This document shows, piece after piece, positions 10,068 through 14,864 of a stretch of 35,177 nucleotides of DNA; position 1 is the first letter of the stretch, and each line of letters opens with the position of its first letter. Both the position numbers and the translations under genes were made by a program. The stretch lies in the IMG/VR virus record IMGVR_UViG_3300006990_000086, positions 1-35,177 of that record. The stretch is one strand, 5' to 3'. The notes under the pieces were generated by a model, which had not been told where the DNA came from, searched no databases, and worked only from the letters and a program-made list of their open reading frames with translations. Source of the DNA: a virus.

Positions 10068-10531
10068 TTCTGAGAGCCTCCATAAAAGAACGCCGCGCAG
10101 GTTCCCAGTATTCCTGATAGCTGGCCCAGCACGAGTGAGATTATGGTCTCATCATTTTGATCGTGAGGCAGAATAGTCACGGTCATTACATAAGCTCCGT
10201 ACAAAATAAGAGCAAGAATGCAAAAGACTTTAGGCGTAACATCGCTTGCAAACTTAGTCCTAGCATCCTTCCTGTCCTCAACCTCAGTCTTAAATGACTC
10301 AAGGTCTATCTCCATTTCTCGGATCTTTGTTTTAAAATCTTGATCTGCTTGTTTTACAAGAACCGCTTTGTCAGGTTCGCGCTCTATTAAATCCTCGATT
10401 TCATTAGCAGTTGCAGTTTCAGGCAAGCCTAGTTTAGATGCAGCCATCTTTACAGCCATTCCTGCCATCGGACCGCCTGCAGCACTAGCTATCGTTGGCG
10501 CTAGTGATTTAAGCAAGCCGCCTAATTTCAT
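10064..10531 (-). CDS. Probable holin of the 3TM / GTA-holin type
   Basis: A 155-aa protein: an Ala/Gly-rich amphipathic start (residues 5-35), a charged middle (45-90), then two clear membrane spans (about 97-115 and 127-152), ending FFYGGSQK. This resembles the 3TM holin family from gene-transfer agents, whose C-terminus has the same small-residue helix and ...YFGSS ending. It lies directly before the lysozyme. Lysis timing and pore formation are expected, but not shown. Confidence 0.75.
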   Translation of the reverse strand: MKLGGLLKSLAPTIASAAGGPMAGMAVKMAASKLGLPETATANEIEDLIEREPDKAVLVKQADQDFKTKIREMEIDLESFKTEVEDRKDARTKFASDVTPKVFCILALILYGAYVMTVTILPHDQNDETIISLVLGQLSGILGTCAAFFYGGSQK

Positions 10532-10731
10532 TCGACAGTTTCCACAATAGTGTCAATTGTGTCGCAAACGTCAGGAACAATAACGCCAGCCGTGGCAGAA
10601 AGCGCTCCTCTGCCCACTGCCCGAACACCTTTGTAAAAGGAAGAGCAGTATATTTCTTTGTTAGCAATAACTTGTTCAACAGATGTGCAGCTTGATAAGG
10701 TAAACACAAACAATAGACAAATCAGTCTCAT
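10528..10731 (-). CDS. Small lipoprotein in the lysis cassette
   Basis: A 67-aa precursor with a hydrophobic signal and lipobox LSSC15 (then Thr, Ser, so outer-membrane sorting is expected). After Cys15 only 52 residues remain, with cysteines at 29 and 56. It is too short and not proline-rich, unlike a typical Rz1, and no Rz-like partner with a coiled-coil periplasmic domain sits beside it. It could still be an outer-membrane spanin partner or an anchor for the lipase. The stop overlaps the holin start. Confidence 0.7.
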   Translation of the reverse strand: MRLICLLFVFTLSSCTSVEQVIANKEIYCSSFYKGVRAVGRGALSATAGVIVPDVCDTIDTIVETVE

Positions 10732-11462
10732 TTCATTTTCTCCAGTTGCCTAGCAGCTTCTTGGTTTATAGGCTTTACCTTCTCTTGAGAATCAAGATAC
10801 TCTTTTAGCCTTTTCTTGTAATCGTTCATGCTGTGGTCAGCGACTCTATCGGCCACGCCGCCTCTGTCAGCTCTTCTAGTGTCCTTGCTGGGATTTATAT
10901 AGTCTGGGCCTGTATTGCTAAAGTATAGCATTGTCTGCGACTTAGAAGGCCCGTAGAGCAGCCGTGGGACTCGTGCAACCATATCACTGCCGTTTACGCA
11001 GGATATCTGATTGTCGAGCTTCATCGGCCTCTTAAAGCCTTTAAAAAACGTGTTCGGCTTACCGAATGTGATGAGATTGATATTGTCGTGCTTGCCGTTC
11101 ATCTTGGAGGCAGACATCTCTGCGAGCGCACCTCCTAGACTGTGGCCTGTAAACATCGTTCGCTTTTTTGGGTCAATGTGCTTCTTGATCTCTTTCCAGA
11201 TAGAAGCGTGTTGTAGAACGAAACCTGCGTGGCACATCCTTCCGGCATACGGAACCGGGATAGCAGTCAGGTCAGTTATGATGTCGTTTAGCTTTTTCTC
11301 AGTACCTCGAAAAGCAATAACATCTATGCTTTTGCGCTTGATTACAAAAGCCGTGGCTCCTGTGATCTTGTTTTCTATCTTTATGGCGTCCTTATTCTTC
11401 TGGTTGTAAGCCTTCTCTGACCAGCTTGCAGCCATATTTAGTAAAACAGGATCAAGTTTCAT
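10728..11462 (-). CDS. Class 3 lipase-like hydrolase
   Basis: A 244-aa alpha/beta hydrolase. FRGT (51-54), HAGF (78-81), TGHSLGGA with nucleophile Ser108, TFGKPN (132-137), GSDMVARVP with Asp160, and VADHSMNDY with His210 give a complete Ser-Asp-His triad in the Lipase_3 layout. The substrate is not shown; phospholipids of host membranes fit the position in a lysis cassette. It has no signal peptide, so it would reach the envelope only after the holin opens the inner membrane. Start and stop overlap both neighbours by four bases. Confidence 0.88.
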   Translation of the reverse strand: MKLDPVLLNMAASWSEKAYNQKNKDAIKIENKITGATAFVIKRKSIDVIAFRGTEKKLNDIITDLTAIPVPYAGRMCHAGFVLQHASIWKEIKKHIDPKKRTMFTGHSLGGALAEMSASKMNGKHDNINLITFGKPNTFFKGFKRPMKLDNQISCVNGSDMVARVPRLLYGPSKSQTMLYFSNTGPDYINPSKDTRRADRGGVADRVADHSMNDYKKRLKEYLDSQEKVKPINQEAARQLEKMK

Positions 11463-11680
11463 TTCTCGGCCTTGTTATCTAGTTTCTTAAAAATAGCGCC
11501 TAGTGTTTCTTTGATCTCACGGATGTCCTCGCGGTAATCATCTTTAGCAACGTACTTTTCAGGAATTTGCTTCATGTCAGCGTCGATTCTATCAAGCAAG
11601 ACAAAAACACGATTAACTAGCCAACCGCCACCAAAGCTAATGATTGCTAAAAATACGTTAAATCCAGTTTGAAATTCCAT
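11459..11680 (-). CDS. Small one-span membrane protein with coiled coil
   Basis: 73 aa: MEFQTGFNVFLAIISFGGGW (span about 8-28), then a charged coiled coil (35-70). The same form, MeFqTGFN...GGW then KYV.KDDYR.DI.EIK, recurs in phages I know from marine samples and is often placed with lysis genes. It may be a holin-accessory protein. Confidence 0.65.
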   Translation of the reverse strand: MEFQTGFNVFLAIISFGGGWLVNRVFVLLDRIDADMKQIPEKYVAKDDYREDIREIKETLGAIFKKLDNKAEK

Positions 11681-12184
11681 TTACTCTTCCACGTTTAAAG
11701 GGTTATCCAGTATGCGCTGGATACGTTCTTCAAGGTCATCACGCATTGCTCGTAGTTCGTTATCTACATCTCTAAGACTGTCGTTTACACGCTCTTCTAA
11801 AGCGTACACGTCATCTCTAAGCTCTCTCGTGGCTAAGACAACAGAATCATCAGTGCCTCTAGCAATCCGCTCTGTGGCGTCTATATCGACTTGCAGGCGG
11901 TCTATGTTATTCATCAACTCGACTATATCTTGATCTAAAGCTCGTTCCACGGCTGCTATTAAGACTTCAGCAGCATCTAATTTAGTGCTTAATACGGCTA
12001 ATTCTTCGTCATACGAGCTAAAGTCAGGCGAAACGTAGGCAGTTACTGCTTCTTCGGCATCCAACAAACGCTGATACAACTCGAAGCCTCCCCACATCGC
12101 TGCGCCAATACTACCTAAAAACGGTATAATTAGCAGTAACTTACCGCCAGATACCTTTACCTCACCGACTTCTATCTCTGCCAT
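11681..12184 (-). CDS. Membrane-anchored coiled-coil protein
   Basis: 167 aa with one span (about 12-33) and a long acidic coiled coil with heptads (VIAAVERALDQDIVELMNNIDRLQVDIDATERIARG...) to near the end. It overlaps the start of the NIDO-like gene by 13 bases and may anchor or assemble that protein in the envelope. It is third in a cassette shared with two exported proteins. Rz-like function is possible (an inner-membrane coiled coil pointing into the periplasm), and the length fits Rz, but sequence evidence is weak. Confidence 0.65.
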   Translation of the reverse strand: MAEIEVGEVKVSGGKLLLIIPFLGSIGAAMWGGFELYQRLLDAEEAVTAYVSPDFSSYDEELAVLSTKLDAAEVLIAAVERALDQDIVELMNNIDRLQVDIDATERIARGTDDSVVLATRELRDDVYALEERVNDSLRDVDNELRAMRDDLEERIQRILDNPLNVEE

Positions 12185-14001
12185 TGCAGGTCCACCAAAT
12201 CGTTGTAGCCTTGATTACCCGTCACACGCAAAATACCCACAGGATTTGCCCGAATATTGTTTGCTGGATAAGGTTGCGTGGACGAGTAAAACTCTCTATC
12301 TGTAAGACTTACATCTTGATACTGACTAAACGCCGGGTTGTTAGAGATTAAAAAAACAGCAAGGCTCTGGTCTGTAAATCCACCCGTGTCCTCTAAGTTC
12401 TCTAGCTGGCTGTCTAAACTCTGCTGTACATCAGCTTGGCTCATAGCTCGAATCTGCGTCTCAGCTCTTTGCACTGTGCGCTGTTCGTCGCGGCTCGGAG
12501 GTGTTACGTCAAAGCGGCTAAAGTCCGGTAGCTGTGCTGACAAGAATTGCCCTACGCTCTGCCCTGTCGCAATAGCATCGTTAAAATCGTTTTCAAACTG
12601 CATTTGCGCTGGAGGAGCCAAACTTTCTTGAGTCAGCCCGTTTACTTCTTGCTGTTCTGATTGAGTTACAAATACCTCAGTAATTTGCTGCTGCATCTCT
12701 GTTACTGCTTGGTCTGAGTCGATCTCATCTACACTCATAACCGTTTGCGGCTGATAGCTTTGGGATGTAAGGCTCATAGCAATCCCAACAACATCAATGG
12801 CTGGTTTTGCAACAGCGCTCACGCTTTTTGCCGCAGGTTCTGCTCGTGTCTCTGCGGCTACTTCAACAAGAGCGGCTTGGGCTTCGACAGGTCTTGCGAC
12901 GTCCACTATCGGCTCTGCCCTAACAACAACACGTTCTGGAGCAGGTTCTGGTCTTGGCTCCCGAGTTACTTGGACAACCTCAACTGATGTTTCGACAGCT
13001 TCTACTGGTCTAGTCTCTCTAACCTGTTCTACAGTCTGCCGCTCACCTGTAATTTCTTGCTGCTGTCTACTAGGCTCTATAGGATTCGGGCTTGCAAACA
13101 TTTGCTCCTGCGGTGCTTCCTGATAAATCTGCGGAGCTAATTGCGTTAATGCTCTCGGTCTTCCCATAGCGTCTGGCTGATCTAGATACAAAAAGTCATC
13201 AGCCGAATCGCCAAATACAGTATCAACCGCTTGCTCTGCGTAGGTAGGAGGAGCTGATTCTTGACCGCCACCACCTTTTGGTTGGTTCAATGTGCTGGCC
13301 TGCCCTACCAGACCAAATACATCGCCATAGTTGTTAGTTGTCAGATCACCGCCGTAGCCAGAGATTAATTGTCCTGTAGCGTTTGGGTTCATCGTAAACT
13401 TGTCACCATAAAACTGCTGCGTATGCCAAAACGGGTCAGCGGCAGTGTCGCCTGTCCAGCCGATAAAGGCTTGATGACTGTCGATAGCTACATCTTGGTA
13501 TAGGTACTCATACCCGCCAGTTTTATCTATGTTCAACTGAAACGTATTAACAGAGTTAGGCCGGTTGTATTCGGTGACTTTGTACCAGAGAAACTTAGAC
13601 TCGGCTTCGTTTGTCGAGTAGTAATACCCGTCACCGTCTCTTATATTGGTGTCATCAAGATCAGTCCATAACGGAGCAAGCATATAGCTAAACTGCCCGA
13701 CCTTGGCATCTAGGTAGTTAGGTGTACCCGCACTAAAGTTATAACCATCACAGCAGTGACCGTATGTCGGACGTGTTTGAACGCCTAGATTGTTCTGATT
13801 AGTAGGCGACCAAAGCAAAATAAACCCGTTGGTCGACATCCAAGCGTCAGTAAATACTTTGTCCAAGTACGGGAAATCATGCCCAAGCTGAACGTGATAG
13901 GCAGAATCGTCTACACCATTCATAACTTGCGTCATGCCAACAGGATCGAGGTCAGCATAAGCAATAGCTGGAAACAGGATAAGTAACGTCAGACGTTTCA
14001 A
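12172..14001 (-). CDS. Exported protein with NIDO-like domain
   Basis: 609 aa with a Sec signal peptide (cut after AYA16). The domain from about 20 to 230 has features of NIDO domains: TNGFILLW, then a run with MLAPLWTDLDD and an aromatic/Tyr-rich middle (YYSTNEAESKFLWYKVTEYNRPNSVNTFQLNI). A long Ala/Val/Pro/Glu-rich linker (about 300-390) follows, with many short Val-Glu and Arg-Pro runs, then Gln/Ser-rich helices (about 420-540) and a short C-terminal segment. NIDO domains occur in extracellular adhesion proteins, so it may be secreted, on the host surface or in the virion. It starts by ATGA overlap with the N/T-repeat gene. Confidence 0.75.
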   Translation of the reverse strand: MKRLTLLILFPAIAYADLDPVGMTQVMNGVDDSAYHVQLGHDFPYLDKVFTDAWMSTNGFILLWSPTNQNNLGVQTRPTYGHCCDGYNFSAGTPNYLDAKVGQFSYMLAPLWTDLDDTNIRDGDGYYYSTNEAESKFLWYKVTEYNRPNSVNTFQLNIDKTGGYEYLYQDVAIDSHQAFIGWTGDTAADPFWHTQQFYGDKFTMNPNATGQLISGYGGDLTTNNYGDVFGLVGQASTLNQPKGGGGQESAPPTYAEQAVDTVFGDSADDFLYLDQPDAMGRPRALTQLAPQIYQEAPQEQMFASPNPIEPSRQQQEITGERQTVEQVRETRPVEAVETSVEVVQVTREPRPEPAPERVVVRAEPIVDVARPVEAQAALVEVAAETRAEPAAKSVSAVAKPAIDVVGIAMSLTSQSYQPQTVMSVDEIDSDQAVTEMQQQITEVFVTQSEQQEVNGLTQESLAPPAQMQFENDFNDAIATGQSVGQFLSAQLPDFSRFDVTPPSRDEQRTVQRAETQIRAMSQADVQQSLDSQLENLEDTGGFTDQSLAVFLISNNPAFSQYQDVSLTDREFYSSTQPYPANNIRANPVGILRVTGNQGYNDLVDLQWQR

Positions 14002-14864
14002 CGGACTCTCCTGTCAGGCTCTGGGATTCGATCAGGGTTAGCTTCCCACAACGCTTTTGCCTCATCTCCTATCTTGCCCTCGTAAGGACACGGTGTCCCT
14101 GCGCTCATCATGCTTGACCAGACACGGTAGTCCTGACACATCAATGACACAGCGGCAACCCGCATACCCATATCGTAAAGTGTTTTACCTAACTTTATTC
14201 TTTCGCAGTTGATGTCTCTGACAGAACGTCCTGTAGATAAACCTAATATCTGTGTTTGGACAGCACCAGATATGCCTGTTGTACATAGATCTTGGCTGTA
14301 GCTGCTACCAATACTAGGAGCAATTGCGCTTGGCGGCGGTGACTCTACCTTTTGTGTTACTCGCTGCGTTGAGTCGCTAATGCTCTGGCTGTTGGTTACG
14401 TTGTTGTTAGTGTTCATTGCCGTAATATCACTCACGCTAGCGCTTGTGCTAAAGCTCGTACTATTGGACGTTGAGGCAGATGTTGAATTGCTGGTGTTAG
14501 TGTTGTTGCTCGTCGATATCGAGTTATTGACGTTCGTATTGGTGTTATTGCTCGTATTTGTATTGGTGTTGGTATTGTTAGACGTATTGGTGTTGATGTT
14601 GTTAATCAAGCCAGTGTAGTCCGTAGTGTTTATATTCGTGTTGGCGTTTGTTGAGTTAGTAGTTGTGTTAATCGTAGAGTTGTTAGTATTTGTGTTGGCA
14701 GATGTGCCAGTGTAAGTAGTGTTGTTAGTGTTGTTATTGTTGTTGTTATTGGTATTAGTGCTAGTTGCTGTGCTTGTTGCAGTCGTAGTGATCTCTGTCT
14801 GCGTCTGTGCATATACAGGCAGAGATATAAAGCTCAATACTGTGATCGCAACGTATTTGTTCAT
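13998..14864 (-). CDS. Exported Asn/Thr-repeat protein with Cys-containing C-terminal domain
   Basis: 288 aa with a signal peptide (about 1-19). Residues ~25-165 are almost only Asn, Thr and Ser, in TNT/NTN-type runs. After VTQKVESPPPSAIAPS (170-184) comes a well-formed domain with cysteines at 194, 220, 243 and 259: SQDLCTTG, RDINCERIKLGKTLYDMGMRVAAVSLMC, then MSAGTPCPYEGKIGDEAKALW. I recall this combination from uncultured marine phage contigs, where its function is unknown. It sits right after the tail fibre. The repeat would be an extended, possibly glycosylated or water-binding stalk. Confidence 0.75.
   Translation of the reverse strand: MNKYVAITVLSFISLPVYAQTQTEITTTATSTATSTNTNNNNNNNTNNTTYTGTSANTNTNNSTINTTTNSTNANTNINTTDYTGLINNINTNTSNNTNTNTNTSNNTNTNVNNSISTSNNTNTSNSTSASTSNSTSFSTSASVSDITAMNTNNNVTNSQSISDSTQRVTQKVESPPPSAIAPSIGSSYSQDLCTTGISGAVQTQILGLSTGRSVRDINCERIKLGKTLYDMGMRVAAVSLMCQDYRVWSSMMSAGTPCPYEGKIGDEAKALWEANPDRIPEPDRRVR
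14370..14792. repeat. Low-complexity Asn/Thr codon tract
   Basis: About 420 bp of near-repeated AAC/AAT/ACT/ACA codons (GTT/ATT/GTA on the plus strand), inside the 288-aa gene. It is prone to slippage or recombination, and three-base changes would keep the frame. Confidence 0.8.

Follow-up and report, generated by a model that had tools for sequence, protein, structure and literature searches.

The three genes directly downstream of the tail-fibre gene in the window, by which we mean the whole 35,177-nucleotide stretch analysed here (IMG/VR virus record IMGVR_UViG_3300006990_000086, which encodes P22-type coat and portal proteins), form a conserved unit, A-B-C, that recurs in distant phages. 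As judged from the genomes compared, the unit is marked by tight gene linkage, export signals, a membrane segment, exchange of the head of B and kinship of A with a family of exported proteins in bacteria. We tentatively favour the view that the trio is an envelope-anchored adhesin or fibre module acting on infected cells.

According to gene calls made by simple scripts, A and B overlap by 4 nt and B and C by 13 nt, and 9 nt separate the end of the tail-fibre gene from A (Table 1). C is followed by a gapless operon for a 73-aa membrane protein, a lipase, a small lipoprotein, a 155-aa membrane protein and a lysozyme, after which a nuclease gene is located. The 73-aa gene belongs to this shared downstream cassette and stands outside the trio. 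Within the same lysis region, positions 10728-11462 encode a class-3 lipase (PF01764, E 1e-16), and positions 10528-10731, between the lipase and the 155-aa membrane protein, encode a 67-aa lipoprotein with an LSSC lipobox, which is conserved among related marine phages.

Table 1 Features of the A-B-C locus in the window, with the evidence on which each assignment is based.
Feature	Position	Strand	Basis
Gene A (288 aa), exported protein with Asn/Thr/Ser stalk and C-terminal four-Cys domain	13998..14864	-	ORF, alignment, PHROG match
A signal peptide, residues 1-19	14808..14864	-	sequence and heuristic
A Asn/Thr/Ser-rich stalk, residues about 21-178	14331..14804	-	composition
A conserved domain, residues about 179-277	14034..14330	-	alignment A4, AlphaFold model
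Gene B (609 aa), exported head-linker-tail protein, TTG start	12172..14001	-	ORF
B head, NIDO-like beta domain, residues about 17-240	13282..13953	-	Pfam, model, head swaps
B disordered Val/Glu/Pro/Arg linker, residues about 241-467	12601..13281	-	pLDDT
B C-terminal part, residues about 468-609	12175..12600	-	conserved among phages differing in head
Gene C (167 aa), putative inner-membrane anchored coiled coil	11681..12184	-	ORF, alignment, coiled-coil family matches
C transmembrane segment, residues about 15-35	12080..12142	-	hydropathy
C C-terminal NPL motif, residues 161-163	11696..11704	-	alignment, locus survey
73-aa membrane/coiled-coil protein, phrog_462, directly downstream of C	11459..11680	-	PHROG match

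A scan of IMG/VR with the A domain returned at least 591 confirmed relatives, and phage records matching A numbered nine at first, with two more found by a freshwater query. The order A, B-like gene and NPL (or NPM) protein was present in 11/11 cultured or complete phage records; HTVC115P and HTVC023P have extra small genes between B and C, as Baldr has between A and B. The middle gene of the Roseobacter phages and of ct7L0027 codes for an unrelated exported-looking protein, from which we conclude that the constant members are A and C. The survey was extended to 100 loci with enough sequence, most of them from IMG/VR or MAG-binned contigs and with exact duplicates alone removed; 94 of these carry, after A, a short ORF with NP and one of L, I, M, F or V near its end, and in 85 of the 94 this ORF is the second gene after A. 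Carriers comprise podo-, myo- and jumbo-sized phages, including cultured Pelagibacter and Roseobacter phages, and the "bacterial" MAG contigs matching A look, by their gene content, like phage contigs that were binned with their hosts. Since the trio is conserved across such diverged genomes, the sequence comparison rules out chance ORFs.

These results bear on an earlier note on this DNA, which had described an exported three-gene cassette, consisting of a protein with a ~140-residue Asn/Thr/Ser stalk and a four-Cys domain, a protein with a NIDO-like domain and a long Val/Glu/Pro linker, and a membrane coiled coil, and had proposed that the three genes constitute one undescribed system. The cassette is real, with overlapping minus-strand genes, signal peptides, a membrane anchor and a coiled coil; the stalk and the domain were confirmed, the four cysteines being conserved, and the description of the second protein holds, with a NIDO match that is sub-threshold. 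The proposal of a single system came through both checks that the note had suggested, since the trio co-occurs in distant phages and no known spanin or tail family was recovered by sequence, nor any PDB fold above Z 5. We found no description of the trio in the open-access literature, and the available part of the HTVC027P transcriptome paper does not mention its genes (PMC12753301).

The signal peptide of A terminates VYA^Q, and residues 21-165 (145 aa) comprise 45 N, 44 T and 25 S. The stalk varies greatly in length between relatives; for the window, we rejected the idea that it is a long DNA tandem-repeat artefact. The domain that follows contains a PPPSAIAPS motif, four cysteines (194, 220, 243 and 259, all among the invariant columns of alignment A1) and a predicted beta-hairpin followed by four helices, which in the AlphaFold model mostly have a pLDDT above 90, the hairpin being of low confidence (pLDDT 50-65). 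A matches phrog_20531 (E 1.9e-11), and the PDB fold search with its domain gave no useful match (best Z 2.2). PDB searches by sequence likewise gave no useful relatives, and the structural search of BFVD returned uncharacterised relatives only, one of which led to Achromobacter phage phiAxp-2. In one public record, of CRP-810, A is labelled "OmpA family", a label that the sequence does not support, as this protein has no Pfam match.

B starts with a signal peptide, and its head matches Pfam NIDO (PF06119) with E 0.0069 and 16.9 bits, below the gathering cut-off of 25. The NIDO-like assignment is supported by a relative of B that also matches NIDO (18.6 bits, again below the gathering score of 25) and by a confident beta-rich model of residues 22-240. 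Over residues 240-467 the pLDDT is below 50, and the C-terminus is helical and modelled with low confidence; the whole model matched PDB folds up to Z 5.0 only, none of them useful. Between its head and linker, B of loci L039, L041, L044, L047 and L122 carries Cys-rich repeats that read C..NPLY...CPGY..AY..QQC or nearly so.

Across relatives, the head of B is either NIDO-like or CBM4/9-like, and comparing the loci region by region reveals recombination at this position. Loci L012 and L018 share 97% identity in A, 94% in the linker, 98% in the C-terminus of B and 99% in C, but 54% in the head, and the window and L038 share 87% in A and 75% in C, but 1% in the head. The tail fibre, A and head are 100% identical between L028 and L032, with 63% identity in both linker and C. 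Pairwise identities, whose correlations are confounded by shared ancestry and gene distance, gave r 0.76 for the B C-terminus against C as well as against A, and 0.24 for the head against C. We conclude that the head is an exchangeable part, while A, the B C-terminus and C stay constant. The head does not have to match the receptor of its own phage, since the window and L012 have heads of 95% identity together with quite different tail fibres (25%), and the correlation between head and tail-fibre identity is weak overall (0.25).

C has a single N-terminal hydrophobic segment followed by coiled-coil family matches, and hydropathy places a transmembrane segment in 64/64 of its relatives; the probable orientation is with the coiled coil in the periplasm. 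The alignment of C-like proteins shows N161 as invariant and P162 and L163 as almost so; one of its rows, another small membrane protein from HTVC115P, is unlikely to be an orthologue of C. A weak match to a tape-measure PHROG is coiled-coil-like in nature. The labels "lysozyme" on C of CRP-810 and "putative lysozyme" on C of CRP-207 are unsupported, both proteins being NPL coiled-coil-like; public records name as lysozyme the NPL coiled-coil-like proteins at L140:8213-8635 and L009:3292-3873, where the label looks wrong.

Signal-peptide-like N-termini were scored in 65/65 A and 70/70 B proteins by a simple heuristic; since 41% of neighbouring genes also pass it if every possible start is admitted, these counts are supportive only. 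The window's A and B both lack a lipobox, and a crude heuristic flagged three of 135 A/B N-termini. We found no route across the outer membrane for the trio.

Relatives of A also occur outside the trio. The phiAxp-2 protein matches PHROG 20531 and aligns with A on the cysteines, and three more Achromobacter phages (ART, 2-1 and AXY1) carry an A relative beside a conserved exported repeat protein; in all four phages the pair lies in accessory regions without annotated lysis genes. Such exported pairs of repeat protein and A relative (L285:44598-45710 in phiAxp-2) are shared among distinct groups of Achromobacter phages. Chromosomal A genes were found on a Variovorax replicon and in 7/399 genomes of the order searched around G256; from Variovorax and the common gene set, we take the carriers to be Burkholderiales. 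At seven of nine bacterial loci, the gene immediately before the A relative encodes an exported Gly/Ser/Asn/Thr repeat protein, which is not itself part of the phage trio. These operons (L289:5950-7950 in Variovorax, L302-L306 and L308) sometimes include a third small exported protein, and their proteins had no meaningful match in Pfam and NCBIfam. LuxR-type regulators lie near two bacterial A loci, and a diguanylate cyclase near one of these. From the look of the sequences and their neighbours, the operon may be read as biofilm-like. In a midpoint-rooted tree of A, bacteria and Achromobacter phages form one clade (support 0.83) and aquatic phages another (0.97).

The earlier note had offered four functions, namely superinfection exclusion, an envelope-spanning lysis device, binding of lysate particles and virion decoration; the evidence leans towards an adhesin-like surface complex, and the lysis device has lost ground. 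An adhesin-like complex is favoured because the bacterial relatives of A lie beside exported repeat proteins and because the head of B is exchanged like a binding domain; it is weakened by the missing route across the outer membrane and the absence of CsgG. According to this proposal, the infected cell would export the trio late in infection, as suggested by its position among late genes. A would be a flexible Asn/Thr stalk borne by a disulphide-bonded assembly domain, and the long linker of B would bear a binding head that is exchangeable between NIDO and CBM4/9-like types, while C would be anchored in the inner membrane with its coiled coil reaching into the periplasm. The conserved NPL tip of C, the domain of A and the C-terminal part of B might together hold the complex, which, displayed on the surface, would benefit the phage by making the infected cell or its debris sticky, so that neighbours or particles are retained, or by otherwise altering the cell surface. 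It is conceivable, if rather doubtful, that the trio represents a new kind of phage-made surface machine, in which C holds A for fibre assembly and B as adhesin, and by which many aquatic phages control the sticking of infected cells and lysates to cells or particles.

The genomic neighbourhood fits lysis as well, since endolysin and holin-like genes often lie next to the trio. Among 132 near neighbours, the annotated families that occur most often are endolysin PHROGs (seven GH19-type and two phrog_7); these are missing from the most-matched families of the 119 farther genes, although at least one of the latter is an annotated lysozyme; a lysozyme/GH19 or holin-like cluster lies near the trio in 45/70 loci. 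C, with an N-terminal transmembrane segment and then a coiled coil, has the topology of an i-spanin, no lambda-type Rz (PF03245) exceeded the cut-off in 39 carrier records (E. coli control positive), and the module is common to several morphotypes, as lysis genes are. C could hence be an inner-membrane spanin with A or B as its periplasmic or outer partner, the device disrupting the outer membrane after endolysin action. We consider this unlikely, and it is weakened by the absence of the trio from most phages with the same cassette and by its coexistence with a spanin-like phrog_812 gene (L080 and L139). When the phage lineage of the window was sampled by searches with the lipase and the 155-aa protein, giving 60 loci with enough upstream sequence, A was present in 15/60 loci with the same lipase/holin/lysozyme cassette and the trio was missing in 45/60, counts that are approximate, as some contigs were counted twice. 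The rarity of lipobox flags, the A relatives in bacterial chromosomes and in Achromobacter phages away from annotated lysis genes, and an exchangeable binding head without obvious lysis role also argue against a lysis device.

In the same sample, an alternative 70-aa/156-aa pair occurs in 0/15 loci with A, while one or both of its genes occur in 36/45 without A; the slot is therefore exclusive in the lineage of the window, occupied by either the trio or the pair, and the 156-aa family and the trio coexist in other phages. In L143, L149, L151 and others, all related marine podophages, a 70-aa signal-peptide Cys protein and a 156-166-aa protein with a C-terminal transmembrane segment replace the trio just upstream of the 73-aa gene or the lipase. 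A slot filled by one or the other exported or membrane set would suit superinfection exclusion or debris masking, in which the complex covers envelope receptors and blocks adsorption or injection by other phages or progeny, and so would export and membrane binding of the proteins, a head exchanged like a recognition domain and the accessory location of the Achromobacter phage relatives. We regard this as quite improbable all the same. Heads and tail fibres do not vary in step, which makes masking of the phage's own receptor unlikely, and known exclusion genes are small and quickly varying, so that a three-protein unit conserved across phage groups would be unusual among them. That the proteins belong to or decorate the virion, possibly binding lysate particles, is very improbable, since A and B carry signal peptides and C a membrane segment, unexpected for cytoplasmic assembly, and A and B have no structural PHROG match, even though the trio adjoins the tail fibre and glycan-binding-like heads are common among virion proteins.

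To our knowledge, exported multi-gene modules are rare in tailed phages. The trio is present in pelagiphages and roseophages as well as in freshwater phages and jumbo-sized contigs, and may therefore meet a need common to phages in dilute water. Should it be an adhesin, it would provide a mechanism, open to test, by which phages control cell aggregation and debris in the ocean and which does not depend on the already debated phage curli genes. In addition, it draws attention to a family of exported bacterial proteins, still unnamed, beside repeat proteins in Burkholderiales; the module is made testable by its relatives in Achromobacter and Pelagibacter phages that are in culture.

Among known systems, phage-borne curli or type VIII secretion genes of pelagiphages and of Melnitz have been proposed to act in aggregation (PMC7029224, PMC9599517, PMC9004378); in Melnitz, whose system differs from the trio, no aggregation was seen (PMC9004378). 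The trio shares with phage curli the aquatic phages, overlapping hosts and exported low-complexity proteins, but B and C have no curli counterpart. We rejected the idea that the trio is curli, based on the lack of CsgG in the cultured or complete carriers (0/11; control positive in 4 genomes), of a Pfam curlin match in 11 A proteins, and of an association between bacterial A genes and CsgG (3/7 against 4/14 genomes). PHROG 20531, matched by A and its phiAxp-2 relative, has no recorded function or partners. Rz/Rz1 spanins resemble the trio in the lysis-gene neighbourhood and in the membrane-anchored coiled coil, C having the N-terminal transmembrane segment and probably the periplasmic coiled coil of an i-spanin. 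In contrast to an o-spanin, which is an outer-membrane lipoprotein with a lipobox, A and B look like signal-peptidase-I substrates, and replacement of spanins by the trio was rejected on account of the spanin-like genes that coexist in some carriers and the many relatives with the same lysis cassette but without the trio. The head of B is of the type found in NIDO (PF06119) and CBM4/9 adhesins, with sub-threshold matches, but its long disordered linker and conserved C-terminal part are absent from those families. The Burkholderiales operon differs from the trio in its Gly/Ser repeat partner, in that no B or NPL protein was seen, and in its separate clade, but has in common with it the four-Cys A domain, the export signal and a Ser/Thr/Asn-rich N-terminus.
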